Shown: one piece after another, positions 7,404 through 14,681 of the stretch
Position numbering within the stretch: the stretch's first letter is position 1
Layout: each line of letters starts with the position of its first letter
Origin: Actinomycetota bacterium
Lineage (GTDB): Bacteria; Actinomycetota; Acidimicrobiia; Acidimicrobiales; JAJPHE01
Length of the DNA: 45,531 bases
NCBI GenBank assembly: GCA_027315345.1
Contig: DAHUYE010000087.1
Location: 1-45,531 of the forward strand
Direction: 5' to 3'
The notes under the pieces: model-generated
Databases searched by the model: none
What the model saw: the letters and a program-made list of their open reading frames with translations, nothing else
What the model was told of the DNA's origin: nothing
Position numbers and translations under genes: made by a program

Positions 7404-8372
7404 ATGAGCGCCGGCGCCTGGAGACGGATCCTGGCCCGCCACCTGTCCGGGGGCTGGGCCGCCGGCGAAGTTGTCGACGCCCTTTTCCAATCGGTGCTTC
7501 TCCGCCCCGCCGATGCCCCCAGCCGGAAGTACTACGTCGCCGCTCTGGCCCGGGGGGTCCCGGTGGCCGCAGTGGTGAGGGCCATCCACACCTCGGCCGA
7601 GGCGGTGGACAACTCCTGGCGGGCGCCCCTGGCCGCCGGTATCGGCCCGGCCCTCTGGGGCCGCCGGGCAGGAACGGCCGGGCGTGGGGCTGGGGCCCCA
7701 CGCTCCGGAGGAGGCGGGGCGCAGGGGACCCGCCGGGCAGAAGAAGCAGGACAAGATGCCGGCCAGATCTATGTGGCTGGTCCTCCACCCGGGGCCGGAG
7801 GGGACGGTTCCGGCCTGTGGGCCGCCCTGGCCTTCGGCCAGGCCCCCGGCTTTCCCCGGTTGGTGGGCTACGACCTGGACCAGCTGGTCTGGGTCCCGTC
7901 CCTGGTCCGGCACCGGGCGCCGGTCGTGGCCGGGCCCTGCGGGCGGGCCGGTCTGAGCCTGGTCCATCCCTCGGCTCGCTCGGTGCTGGTGGTGGCCCGG
8001 CCCAAAGCTGACGGCGCCAGCCGGCAGGCCCGGGCCCTGGCCTCGGACCTGGACCCGGCCCGGGCCTGGCTCGACTACTCCCCCGAGACCGAGGCGGCGC
8101 GGAGGGGCCTGGACCGGGACCGCCCTCTGCAGGCGCTCCTGGAGGCCGGCCCCGAGAAGGCCGACGGCGCCGAGCTCGAACGGGACGCCCTGGCCGCCCT
8201 CACCCTCTTCGACCGGGTGGTCCTGGACGGTCCGCCCCCGGCGGCGGCCGACGGGTCCGGTCCGGACTGGACCTTGTACCGGGCGGCCGTGGCCCGGGTC
8301 ACCGCCGAGGCCCGGGTCACCGCCCCGGCCCGGGCCACCGCCCCGGCCCAAGTCGACGGAGGCCCGGCCTGA
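7404..8372 (+). CDS. DUF4214 protein with degenerate sulfotransferase-like domain
   Basis: A 322-residue protein. Residues about 17-65 (VVDALFQSVLLRPADAPSRK and on) match a DUF4214 module. After a Gly/Arg-rich linker, QIYVAGPPPGAGG aligns by position with the sulfotransferase P-loop of the next gene ([14 protein letters not shown]), and VLVVARPKADGASRQARAL aligns with its 3'-phosphate-binding segment. The Lys and TAGTS residues needed for PAPS binding are gone. The C-terminus has a low-complexity VTAEARVTAPARATAPA tail. It is probably a diverged, catalytically inactive duplicate of its neighbour, perhaps structural or regulatory. The start follows a leaderless promoter; the stop overlaps the next gene. 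Confidence 0.65.
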   Translation: MSAGAWRRILARHLSGGWAAGEVVDALFQSVLLRPADAPSRKYYVAALARGVPVAAVVRAIHTSAEAVDNSWRAPLAAGIGPALWGRRAGTAGRGAGAPRSGGGGAQGTRRAEEAGQDAGQIYVAGPPPGAGGDGSGLWAALAFGQAPGFPRLVGYDLDQLVWVPSLVRHRAPVVAGPCGRAGLSLVHPSARSVLVVARPKADGASRQARALASDLDPARAWLDYSPETEAARRGLDRDRPLQALLEAGPEKADGAELERDALAALTLFDRVVLDGPPPAAADGSGPDWTLYRAAVARVTAEARVTAPARATAPAQVDGGPA

Positions 8373-9469
8373 GGCCCGGCCCGGCCCGGCTGACCGGCCG
8401 GGAGCTGATCGACGGTCTCTACCAGGGCTTTTTCGGCCGCCGCGCCGATGCGGCCGGGCTGGCCCACCACCTCGAGGCGCTGCGATCCGGGCGGCTGGAG
8501 TTGGGCGACCTGATCCATGCCCTGCGCTGGAGCCCGGAGTCGGCTCTGGCCTGGCTGGCCTCCCCGGCGGTCACCCGGGGCCCGGAACTCTGGGCCTCCC
8601 GGAGTGCGGCCGGTCCCGGCTCAGCCGGCGGCGGCGCCGAGGAGCAGATCTACTTCCTGCACATCATGAAGACGGCGGGGACGTCTCTGGTGAACGCCAT
8701 GGCGGCCCGGTCCGGCTCCAGGCTGTGCCTGAGTCAGGTCTTCCTGGACCACATCCCCTTCCTGCCCGAGCCCCTGCTCAAGGGCGCCGCCCTGGTGGCC
8801 GGCCACCTCGGGGCCGGCGTCATCCCGAGCCTGGCCCCGGACGCCAAGGTGGTGACCGTGATCCGGGAGCCGGTCAGTCGGGTCCTGTCCCATTACGCCC
8901 ACATCCTGCGGGACCCCGCCGTGGTGGCCAACACGGCCCGCCTCAGCCTGGCCGAATTCGTCCGCTCGCCCCGGTGGCGGCCCCTGGTGGAGAACTTCCA
9001 GGCCCGCCATCTGGTCCACGACGTCGGCGTGAGCCGGGCCTGGGTGGACTTCTCCCCACCCGAGGCCCTGGCCGGCCTGGGCCCGCCCTTCCCGGATGTG
9101 GACGCCCTCCCCCTGCAGTTCCTCCTGGACTACTCGCCCCTCCCCATGCCGGAGGCGGAGCTGGCGGCGGCGGCCACGGCCCGGCTCGAGAGCCTGGACC
9201 TGGTCGGGGTCACCGACCGCCTGGACGAGTTCCACGCCCACCTGCTCACCCACTGGGGCCAGCGGGCCGAGGGCGGACTACCCCGCGACAACGCCGGCGT
9301 CGGCACCGTCCGGGCCGAGGAGGTGCCCGAGGATCTGCGGGCCGAGATCGTGGCCGCCAACGCCATCGACACCGCCCTCTACCGGCAGGCCCAGGGACTG
9401 GCCGGGAGGGGTTGGAAGAGCCGGGCAACCACAGGCAGTAGCTTTCCGGCCGGAAATCAGGAGGAATGA
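8369..9469 (+). CDS. DUF4214-sulfotransferase fusion
   Basis: A 366-residue protein read from a proposed CTG at 8369. The first ATG/GTG/TTG in frame, TTG 8501, would delete half of the DUF4214 module ([20 protein letters not shown]), whereas CTG 8369 has GGAGG at 8358-8362 with a 6-nt spacer and overlaps the upstream stop as CTGA. The sulfotransferase domain (about 92-345) has the PAPS 5'-phosphosulfate loop HIMKTAGTS (Lys101) and the 3'-phosphate motif [12 protein letters not shown] (Arg166, Arg171). It should move a sulfuryl group from PAPS to a sugar or other acceptor; the acceptor is unknown. It lies directly before a UDP-sulfoquinovose synthase gene, suggesting a role in a sulfur-rich surface glycan. 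Confidence 0.8.
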
Positions 9470-13819: not shown

Positions 13820-14681
13820 GCTGGACGGGGGGATCGGGCCAGAGCCCGGCCGCCAGGGCCCGGTCCACCACCACGGCCCGCATCTCCCCGGGCGGGCCCT
13901 CGACGTGTTCGGCCGGGATGTCCAGGCCGGTGGCCTTACAGGCCAGGCCGTGCAGGTCGTTGACCGTCACCGACACGCCCGAACCCACCACCACTGTGGG
14001 GGGCAGGGCCGGTCCGCCGGCGGCGGGGGCCAGGCCGGAGACGAAGGCGGTGAGCACGTCGTCGATGTAGACGTAGTCCCGGGTGAGCAGGCCGTCCCCG
14101 TGGATGCGGATGCCGGTGCCGGCCCGGGCCGCCTTCATGATGCGGGCCACCATGGTGTCCTTCACCCACATGCCCGGCCCGTAGACGTTGGTCAGGCGCA
14201 GGGCGGTGGCGCCGAGGCCGTAGGCGTGGCGGTAGGAGGACATCAGCATCTCCCCGGCCGCCTTGGTGGCCCCGTAGGGGGTGAGGGGGACCAGGGCAGA
14301 GCGCTCATCGATTAGGCCGCCGCCGGCGCCGCTGCCGACCACGGCGTTGGTGGAGGCGAAGACCAGGCTGGCCACACCCAGCCGGCGGCAGGACTCCAGC
14401 AGGTTCTGCATCAACTCCACGTTGGACCGGTAGACGTTGACCGGGTCCTTGACCGACTGCAGGACGGAAGTGGCCGCGGCCAGGTGGATGACCGCTTCGG
14501 TGTCCGGGGCCAGCGCCTTGTCCAGTACCGAGGGGTCCCGGAGATCGCCCTCGACGGCGGCGCTCACCTCGGTCCGGGGTGGGTTCAGGTCCGCCACCAC
14601 CACCTCATGGCCTTCGTCCATCAGCCGGCGGCAAAGGGACGTGCCGATGAACCCGGCGCCGCCGGTCACGAGGACTTTCAC
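13776..14681 (-). CDS. NAD-dependent sugar-nucleotide epimerase/dehydratase
   Basis: A 301-residue extended SDR protein. The GTG at 14681 is chosen because the protein then starts [13 protein letters not shown], with the NAD loop in its usual place, and a TAGCCT box sits 7 nt upstream; the longer frame from 14786 would overlap the divergent sigma gene. Later motifs are [15 protein letters not shown], a Ser/Thr cluster FASTNAV, catalytic YGATK, and RLTNVYGPG. It is most like UDP-glucose 4-epimerase and relatives; the exact sugar is not assignable. It probably supplies a building block to the adjoining surface-glycan genes. Confidence 0.85.

Follow-up and report, generated by a model that had tools for sequence, protein, structure and literature searches.

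An UDP-sulfoquinovose synthase gene clustered with genes for a GT2 and a GT-C-like glycosyltransferase in an acidimicrobial genome: a predicted route to a sulfonated envelope glycan

Apart from its exceptional use in archaeal N-glycans, sulfoquinovose is generally seen as the head group of a photosynthetic membrane lipid. Synthesis of this lipid, sulfoquinovosyl diacylglycerol (SQDG), combines the UDP-sulfoquinovose synthase SqdB with SqdX or with SqdD. The question addressed here is which product SqdB serves in an Actinomycetota bacterium (Acidimicrobiia; Acidimicrobiales; JAJPHE01; assembly GCA_027315345.1), where its gene is clustered with genes for a family 2 glycosyltransferase (GT2), a membrane protein with a GT-C glycosyltransferase-like fold and a short-chain dehydrogenase/reductase (SDR) sugar epimerase-like protein. 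The window, i.e., the whole stretch of DNA analyzed, comprises the 45,531 nucleotides of contig DAHUYE010000087.1. We read the cluster best, with a probability of roughly 0.6, as a transmembrane glycosylation system that uses polyprenyl-phosphate-sulfoquinovose as sugar donor. An earlier note on this DNA, made from the sequence alone, had proposed that the GT2 loads polyprenyl phosphate and that the GT-C protein transfers the sugar outside, an interpretation that gains support from the co-occurrence of the genes, the absence of SqdX, the linkage of GtrA genes and the GT2 fusions described below.

Proteins encoded at the locus

The open reading frame (ORF) listing places the genes for SqdB, GT2 and the GT-C-like membrane protein in this order on the plus strand, followed by the SDR gene on the minus strand (Table 1), as stated in the earlier note, and the cluster described there is confirmed as real. 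Three bases separate the SqdB stop codon from the GT2 start. Two candidate SqdB start codons (ATG at 9466 and 9469) lie just 3' of an AGGAGG at 9459-9464, and up to 4 bases are shared by the beginning of SqdB and the 3' end of the gene before it.

The window SqdB matched Arabidopsis SQD1 (1qrr) over its full length (547 bits, residues 1-381). Thr145, Tyr182 and Lys186, on which the claim of an intact UDP-sulfoquinovose synthase had been based, are found exactly at these positions, and His96 and Arg101 are also present. In the archaeal homologue Agl3, the Tyr, Lys, His and Arg counterparts were essential, whereas a mutant of the Thr retained activity (PMC4388408). Among 47 aligned SqdB rows, His96, Tyr182 and Lys186 were invariant. 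The NCBIfam equivalog model NF041015 gave the window protein 465 bits, below its cut-off of 575, which is a curation threshold rather than a biochemical feature and was reached by none of the 395 genomes of the class searched. Homology and active-site residues thus assign the protein to the predicted UDP-sulfoquinovose synthases (SqdB/SQD1/Agl3). As a tree of the SqdB sequences contained long branches (L094, L054; loci are numbered L and genomes G throughout) and open forks, we do not use it to order the SqdB groups.

The GT2 protein (259 residues) matched Pfam PF00535 and ends soon after the glycosyltransferase domain; it contains a DADGQ motif and a conserved C-terminal SKKG-like block. The nearest NCBIfam model is PpgS (E = 1.2e-30), where a score of 106.6 bits against a cut-off of 370 marks the protein as a relative rather than a member; PpgS, the nearest characterised relative, uses UDP-N-acetylgalactosamine (UDP-GalNAc) (PMC3485146). 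When a profile of six GT2 relatives from SqdB loci was compared to the Protein Data Bank (PDB), dolichol-phosphate mannose synthase (DPMS) and ArnC ranked first, glucosyl-3-phosphoglycerate synthases matched more weakly and in the N-terminal part, and GtrB-type structures ranked lower still. By kind, the predicted protein is a polyprenyl-phosphate sugar synthase, with polyprenyl phosphate as the acceptor suggested by its relatives, by linkage to GtrA and GT-C genes and by the fusions.

The membrane protein matched none of the families in Pfam or NCBIfam (E ≤ 0.001) and hence no curated YfhO model. A first AlphaFold model, built from 7 rows, was poor (predicted local distance difference test [pLDDT] 52); the model used for the structure search was built from 26 homologue rows (L207 omitted) and reached a pLDDT of 79.7 and a predicted template modeling score (pTM) of 0.86. 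This model resembled AftD (Z = 22.0 over 571 residues, root mean square deviation 4.7), with further matches to oligosaccharyltransferases, ArnT with undecaprenyl phosphate, AftA and Emb proteins (EmbB). Asp38, which is invariant in all 26 homologues, stands at the end of the first loop, which connects helices 7-29 and 38-55; GT-C enzymes keep a catalytic acid at this place. The C-terminal beta-sandwich showed a weak resemblance (Z = 7-8) to parts of glycan-acting enzymes. A GT-C glycosyltransferase fold is thus well supported by the model, while the term "YfhO-like" of the earlier note describes a resemblance without a family match.

The SDR protein matched PF01370 with 184 bits and the GalE model with 127 bits, below that model's cut-off. 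The genome also carries one GtrA gene (PF04138, above the Pfam cut-off) on another contig (C4), unlinked to the window cluster; its product matched the GtrA protein of a gene cassette in a relative (L186) with 148 bits.

Co-occurrence and linkage of the genes

Among the 395 genomes of the class, SqdB was found in 62 and the GT2 subfamily in 64; both were present in 59 genomes, SqdB alone in 3, GT2 alone in 5 and neither in 328. At the genus level (184 genera), both were found in 34 genera and a single one in 3 and 2. The GT-C subfamily was present in 44 genomes, 42 of which carry SqdB, and all 25 genomes with the SDR subfamily carry SqdB. The co-occurrence of SqdB with GT2 and GT-C that had been proposed as a check is thus observed. 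SqdB was counted at ≥ 300 bits and GT2 at ≥ 218 bits, given a score gap from 218.6 to 183; these two thresholds were set after the scores were known. The GT-C subfamily was counted at E ≤ 1e-40, and the SDR threshold (E ≤ 1e-75), set high beforehand, mostly leaves out weaker relatives (e.g., 232-257 bits in L031, L036, L043 and L050). As at most 4 (SqdB), 6 (GT2), 5 (SDR) and 2 (GT-C) candidates were scored per genome, all counts are lower bounds.

GT2 accompanied both SqdB score groups (about 430-490 and 307-343 bits), and the two genes co-occurred even when located far apart (in the single-contig genome G014) or on separate contigs. We also compared seven families that hold SqdB genomes plus listed genomes without SqdB. 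In five of these (f17, f41, f42, f49 and f57), GT2 was present in 10/10 SqdB genomes and in 0/30 listed genomes without SqdB; family f37 showed GT2 in its one SqdB genome and also in four genomes without SqdB, and family f16 contained one SqdB genome without GT2 and two listed others that also lack it.

An SqdX profile was built from four candidates beside SqdB, which are named SqdX here from the start of their sequence plus their linkage. Of five control genomes from outside the actinobacteria, four scored 354-439 bits with this profile and the fifth (L145, an Acidobacteria metagenome-assembled genome [MAG]) 157 bits. No SqdX at the ortholog level was found in the window genome (best score 107 bits) or in 60 of the 61 other SqdB genomes of the class (at most 117 bits), an outcome in favour of the earlier proposal. 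Matches to GT8 (the SqdD type, PF01501) were also absent from the window genome; GT4 matches numbered 32, a count that is by itself useless for finding SqdX. Ordinary SQDG synthesis was rejected as the principal reading on these grounds, i.e., SqdX scores < 120 bits in 61 of 62 SqdB genomes and absence of GT8 from the window genome. The premise that SqdB normally pairs with SqdX was itself incomplete, as two alphaproteobacterial plasmid loci have SqdB next to a GT8 gene (L093) and to a glycosyl transferase of no assigned class (L092), respectively.

Besides the window, the surroundings of SqdB were read at 40 loci from 38 of the 61 other SqdB genomes of the class. Genes of the relatives were predicted with a custom caller, so that their number, their starts and their helix counts are approximate; the comparison of neighbours within 8 kb used all ORFs. 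GT2 was found within 8 kb of SqdB at 10 loci, SDR at 8, GtrA at 5 and GT-C at 1, and the window's order SqdB-GT2-GT-C at one (L045). Away from SqdB, GT-C lay directly 3' of GT2 in 5 of 20 GT2 loci, another type of membrane gene (U2) lay next or next but one in 3 of the 20, and 5 of 20 GT-C loci had GT2 immediately 5' of GT-C. GT2, GT-C, GtrA and SDR genes were all clustered in L186 (with GtrA above the Pfam cut-off), L198, L202 and L210.

Linkage was also evaluated beyond the class, using the best 80 of at least 588 confirmed SqdB matches, which were divided by hand, from the record titles, into 46 actinobacterial and 34 other loci. Within 8 kb of SqdB, the actinobacterial loci showed GT2 in 21, SDR in 16, GtrA in 29 and any of the three in 35 cases; none of the three was found at any of the 34 other loci. 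SqdX stood beside SqdB in 5/34 other and 0/46 actinobacterial loci. All three genes were near SqdB in 14 of the 46, including loci from Nonomuraea, Actinomadura, Microtetraspora, Kribbella, Microlunatus, Saccharomonospora and Amycolatopsis. At eight loci (carriers being Kribbella, Amycolatopsis, Saccharomonospora, Microlunatus and a Pseudonocardiaceae MAG), a single protein combines a membrane part with a GT2 domain, to which the profile of SqdB-linked GT2s gave 342-376 bits. The one fusion scanned against Pfam matched Glycos_transf_2 and, just below the cut-off of 26.1 bits, PMT_2 (25.3 bits); a separate homologue of its membrane part (L047) had no Pfam match. The membrane part is likely a GT-C, and the fusions suggest that the GT2 product would be the donor for it. 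In 46 named genomes, hand-picked from the 80 loci, the GT2 subfamily was present in 23/23 actinobacterial SqdB genomes, of which 16 were already known by linkage and 7 are independent, and in 3/23 others, i.e., two Sulfobacillus MAGs and one Bacillota MAG.

Several SqdB and GT2 neighbourhoods carried further genes. A GT2 near SqdB in L221 (5825-6850, genome G359) bears an N-terminal DUF2304 domain, the family to which Rv3632 of mycobacteria is presumably assigned; Rv3632, the partner of PpgS, is a small membrane protein (PMC3485146). SqdB is divergent from a gene of 208-235 residues, forming one sequence cluster, in L032, L037, L041 and L048; in L032, which was scanned, this is a PAP2 phosphatase, perhaps a polyprenyl-diphosphate recycling enzyme. 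A protein of about 320-430 residues, in two sequence clusters, follows SqdB in L033 (10679-11965), L037 (8341-9318) and eight similar loci (L032, L034, L038, L039, L041, L044, L048 and L061); it was considered as SqdX and dropped, as it starts with one membrane helix and had no Pfam match in L037 and L033. In Nonomuraea and Microtetraspora, an S-adenosylmethionine (SAM) methyltransferase gene (identified with Pfam in L163) lies directly 3' of SqdB (L134 11161-11892, L163 11164-11892, L128 7226-7966), and the sulfosugar may be methylated in these organisms.

Other arrangements were found on plasmids and in Acidobacteria. On a Rhodococcus qingshengii plasmid (L091 7004-13948), an SqdB of a distant group has a SulP anion transporter upstream and is followed by a hypothetical protein of about 640 residues, a glycosyltransferase and an alkyl sulfatase. 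The SqdB on a Pseudonocardia autotrophica plasmid (L090) is 64% identical to that of the window, divergent from a GT2 and located upstream of a cysteine-synthase-like gene and a major facilitator superfamily (MFS) transporter. In the acidobacterial locus L169 (4791-9668), an asparagine-synthetase-like protein of about 640 residues and a membrane protein with about 10 helices precede SqdB, and L145, L162, L170 and L174 show a like arrangement.

Within the window, the gene directly upstream of SqdB had been called a sulfotransferase dependent on 3'-phosphoadenosine 5'-phosphosulfate (PAPS); its place is as described, and its identity is weak, given two matches under the curated cut-offs (Sulfotransfer_3, 18.4 bits; Sulfotransfer_2, 17.4 bits). 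No called gene was tagged as its relative (E 1e-5) in the 40 compared SqdB loci. This gene and the adjacent ORF before it encode 322 residues each and share a stretch with 45% identity over 47 residues (E = 4e-5), so the ORF in front may have arisen as a copy of the sulfotransferase candidate that has since decayed. The cluster is immediately preceded by 4963-7119, whose product looks secreted and shows weak FG-GAP and beta-propeller matches along with a GYWLVASDGGIFSFGDA repeat at its C-terminus; an ABC exporter gene (Pfam) and a second gene that reads like one lie before it.

Table 1. Predicted features of the sulfoquinovose cluster and its upstream genes in the window
Feature	Position	Strand	Evidence
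UDP-sulfoquinovose synthase (SqdB/SQD1 family)	9466-10647 (start may be 9469)	+	SQD1 1qrr match and active-site residues
Polyprenyl-phosphate sugar synthase-type GT2; predicted to make polyprenyl-phosphate-sulfoquinovose	10651-11430	+	PF00535; PpgS relative
Multi-spanning GT-C glycosyltransferase with C-terminal beta-sandwich; predicted outside sugar transferase	11462-13819	+	AlphaFold model; AftD likeness
SDR sugar epimerase/dehydratase-like protein	13776-14681 (ORF open to 14786)	-	PF01370
Possible PAPS sulfotransferase, weakly supported	8501-9469 (start uncertain)	+	Sub-threshold Sulfotransfer_3 and Sulfotransfer_2
ORF with sub-threshold DUF4214 match; possible cluster member	7404-8372	+	21.8 bits against a cut-off of 23.2

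Proposed pathway and alternative readings

In the pathway that we propose, SqdB would convert UDP-glucose and sulfite to UDP-sulfoquinovose, and GT2 would transfer sulfoquinovose to polyprenyl phosphate at the inner membrane face. The GtrA-type flippase encoded on contig C4 would then turn the lipid-linked sugar outward, where the GT-C protein (11462-13819) would transfer it to an acceptor outside the cell, most probably a glycan or glycoprotein of the envelope. UDP-sulfoquinovose as the GT2 donor is suggested by co-inheritance of GT2 with SqdB, and the flipping step, acceptor and product are likewise predictions. The SDR might add an optional step that alters the sugar, e.g., at C4; the roles of the SDR and of the possible sulfotransferase are guesses.

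A number of observations weigh against this pathway. GT2 lies beyond 8 kb of SqdB in 30 of the 40 loci of the class, and GT-C is near SqdB in 1 of 40, some of these loci being cut short by contig ends; the window itself contains no GtrA gene. In several families (L193, L194, L181 and L187), an SqdB-unlinked GT2 sits in a conserved housekeeping stretch near an ispH-like gene. Three SqdB genomes lack a GT2 above the threshold (G244, G352 and G389, the last with a GT2 truncated by a contig end), and five GT2 genomes lack SqdB; four of these five carry either a GT2 type of 343 residues or a fragment closest to it, and the GT2 of the fifth (G154) adjoins an SDR fragment where a 3.8-kb contig ends. 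The Fisher tests of co-occurrence ignore phylogeny. As GT2 scores far below the PpgS equivalog cut-off, its donor cannot be read from its sequence. Arg101 is replaced by Pro in 5 and by Ala in 1 of the 47 SqdB rows, including Pro in the cassette locus L043 (4350-5495), so that the relatives need not all share one activity. Finally, the SqdX profile identified two SqdX-like genes (391 and 375 bits) in G233, whose locus L040 holds the linked cassette, and gave intermediate scores in Nonomuraea (309 bits) and Kribbella (267 bits), and the Sulfobacillus genome of L158 combines SqdX (429 and 427 bits) with GT2 (332 bits); some of these organisms may also produce sulfolipid. The scores were low in Saccharomonospora (118 bits) and Actinomadura (103 bits), and S. 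iraqiensis, which carries the linked cassette, has no strong SqdX-like gene. The housekeeping stretch near ispH also holds der, aroA, cmk and plsC-like genes (named by eye).

One alternative is that GT2, GtrA and GT-C carry another sugar, e.g., one made by the SDR, and that a different enzyme adds sulfoquinovose to the same envelope glycan, in which case the genes would co-occur through serving one glycan. An SDR of the GalE/dehydratase kind does accompany many cassettes, UDP-GalNAc is the donor of PpgS, and any of the 32 GT4 matches in the window genome could act on UDP-sulfoquinovose. However, the SDR (E ≤ 1e-75) is present in 25 of the 62 SqdB genomes as compared to 59 of 62 for GT2, so that GT2 tracks SqdB more closely than it tracks the SDR, and the GT2 subfamily occurs in just 5 of 333 SqdB-less genomes of the class. 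We consider this alternative unlikely. It is less probable still that GT2 is a new SQDG synthase, transferring sulfoquinovose to diacylglycerol in place of SqdX, with the membrane protein belonging elsewhere. An intact SqdB in a genome without SqdX and GT8 would fit such an enzyme, as would the location of GT2 near a plsC-like gene in some relatives; its nearest relatives and structures, on the other hand, are mostly polyprenyl-phosphate enzymes, and a diacylglycerol transferase would need neither the GT-C-like fusions (8 loci) nor the repeated pairing with GtrA and GT-C.

Two further explanations seem very improbable to us. If SqdB worked with an SqdX that went unrecognised or unassembled to make ordinary sulfolipid, GT2 and GT-C would be unrelated envelope housekeeping genes. 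The assembly consists of 106 contigs and is 97.7% complete, SqdX-like genes do occur in G233 and in two of the tested actinomycetes, and the score of just 157 bits in the SqdB-bearing Acidobacteria genome of L145 indicates that the search misses some SqdB partners; yet 61 of 62 SqdB genomes lack an SqdX-like gene above 117 bits, too many to be explained by gaps, and the co-occurrence of SqdB with GT2 and GT-C would be left unexplained. The other explanation, that the product of the SqdB-like protein is not UDP-sulfoquinovose but a similar nucleotide sugar, draws on the score below the NCBIfam cut-off and on the relatives without Arg101, and is countered by the full-length match to SQD1, the catalytic residues kept in the window copy and the conservation of His96, Tyr182 and Lys186 in all aligned rows.

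A wider form of the proposed pathway, in which sulfonated envelope glycans occur across the Actinomycetota, is tentative, and we would put it at somewhat less than even odds. SqdB would then feed a dedicated polyprenyl-phosphate-sulfoquinovose donor rather than mainly serving SQDG, GtrA would flip this donor, and lineage-specific GT-Cs (the YfhO-like type, other membrane types and the GT2 fusions) would transfer the sugar, with optional epimerisation or methylation.

Comparison with known systems

Surface-glycan sulfoquinovose is known from the archaea Sulfolobus and Haloferax (PMC4245038, PMC4343526). Among the papers listed in a literature search, none reported a bacterial sulfoquinovose glycan or a polyprenyl- or dolichyl-phosphate-sulfoquinovose donor in its title or abstract opening, a screen that could miss reports made deeper in the text or in papers beyond those listed. 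If the proposed pathway is true, bacteria would gain a permanently charged, C-sulfonated surface sugar by means of a dedicated lipid-phosphate donor and an outer transferase, a new function would be identified for SqdB genes otherwise annotated as sulfolipid genes, and bacteria that degrade sulfoquinovose would have a further source of it. As the linked cassette is present in cultured Saccharomonospora, Actinomadura, Nonomuraea, Kribbella and Microlunatus, the pathway is directly testable.

The SQDG pathway shares the first enzyme with the window genome and differs by SqdX and GT8, which were not found there. The Agl3 system of Sulfolobus is similar in that a UDP-sulfoquinovose synthase feeds a surface glycan instead of a membrane lipid; it differs in that archaeal N-glycans are made and that the consulted portions of the sources describe no single-sugar polyprenyl-phosphate-sulfoquinovose donor (PMC4388408, PMC4245038, PMC4343526). 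According to the same portions, Haloferax volcanii has no Agl3 homologue.

The nearest actinobacterial parallel is the PpgS-Rv3779 system, which adds galactosamine to arabinogalactan in mycobacteria and corynebacteria and has the same nearest GT2 family, a polyprenyl-phosphate donor and an outside GT-C; its donor is UDP-GalNAc, SqdB is not mentioned in the available parts of these sources (PMC3485146, PMC9671496), and the window GT2 falls below the PpgS cut-off. Multi-component transmembrane glycosylation is also established in Gram-positive bacteria, i.e., CsbB-GtcA-YfhO and GtlA-GtcA-GtlB, which, as reviewed (PMC8035078), have in common with the set described here a GT-A enzyme that makes the lipid-phosphate sugar, a GtrA-type flippase and a GT-C of the YfhO or PMT_2 kind. 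In the window, the GT-A and GT-C genes are encoded together, with GtrA in the genome but unlinked (it is linked in relatives). Unlike in the CsbB and GtlA systems, the window GT2 ends soon after its glycosyltransferase domain and the GT-C belongs to no Pfam family; moreover, those systems transfer galactose, N-acetylglucosamine (GlcNAc) or glucose (PMC8035078), while here the set follows a UDP-sulfoquinovose synthase. Cassettes of this kind, with sulfoquinovose as the predicted donor sugar, are found in many Actinomycetota.

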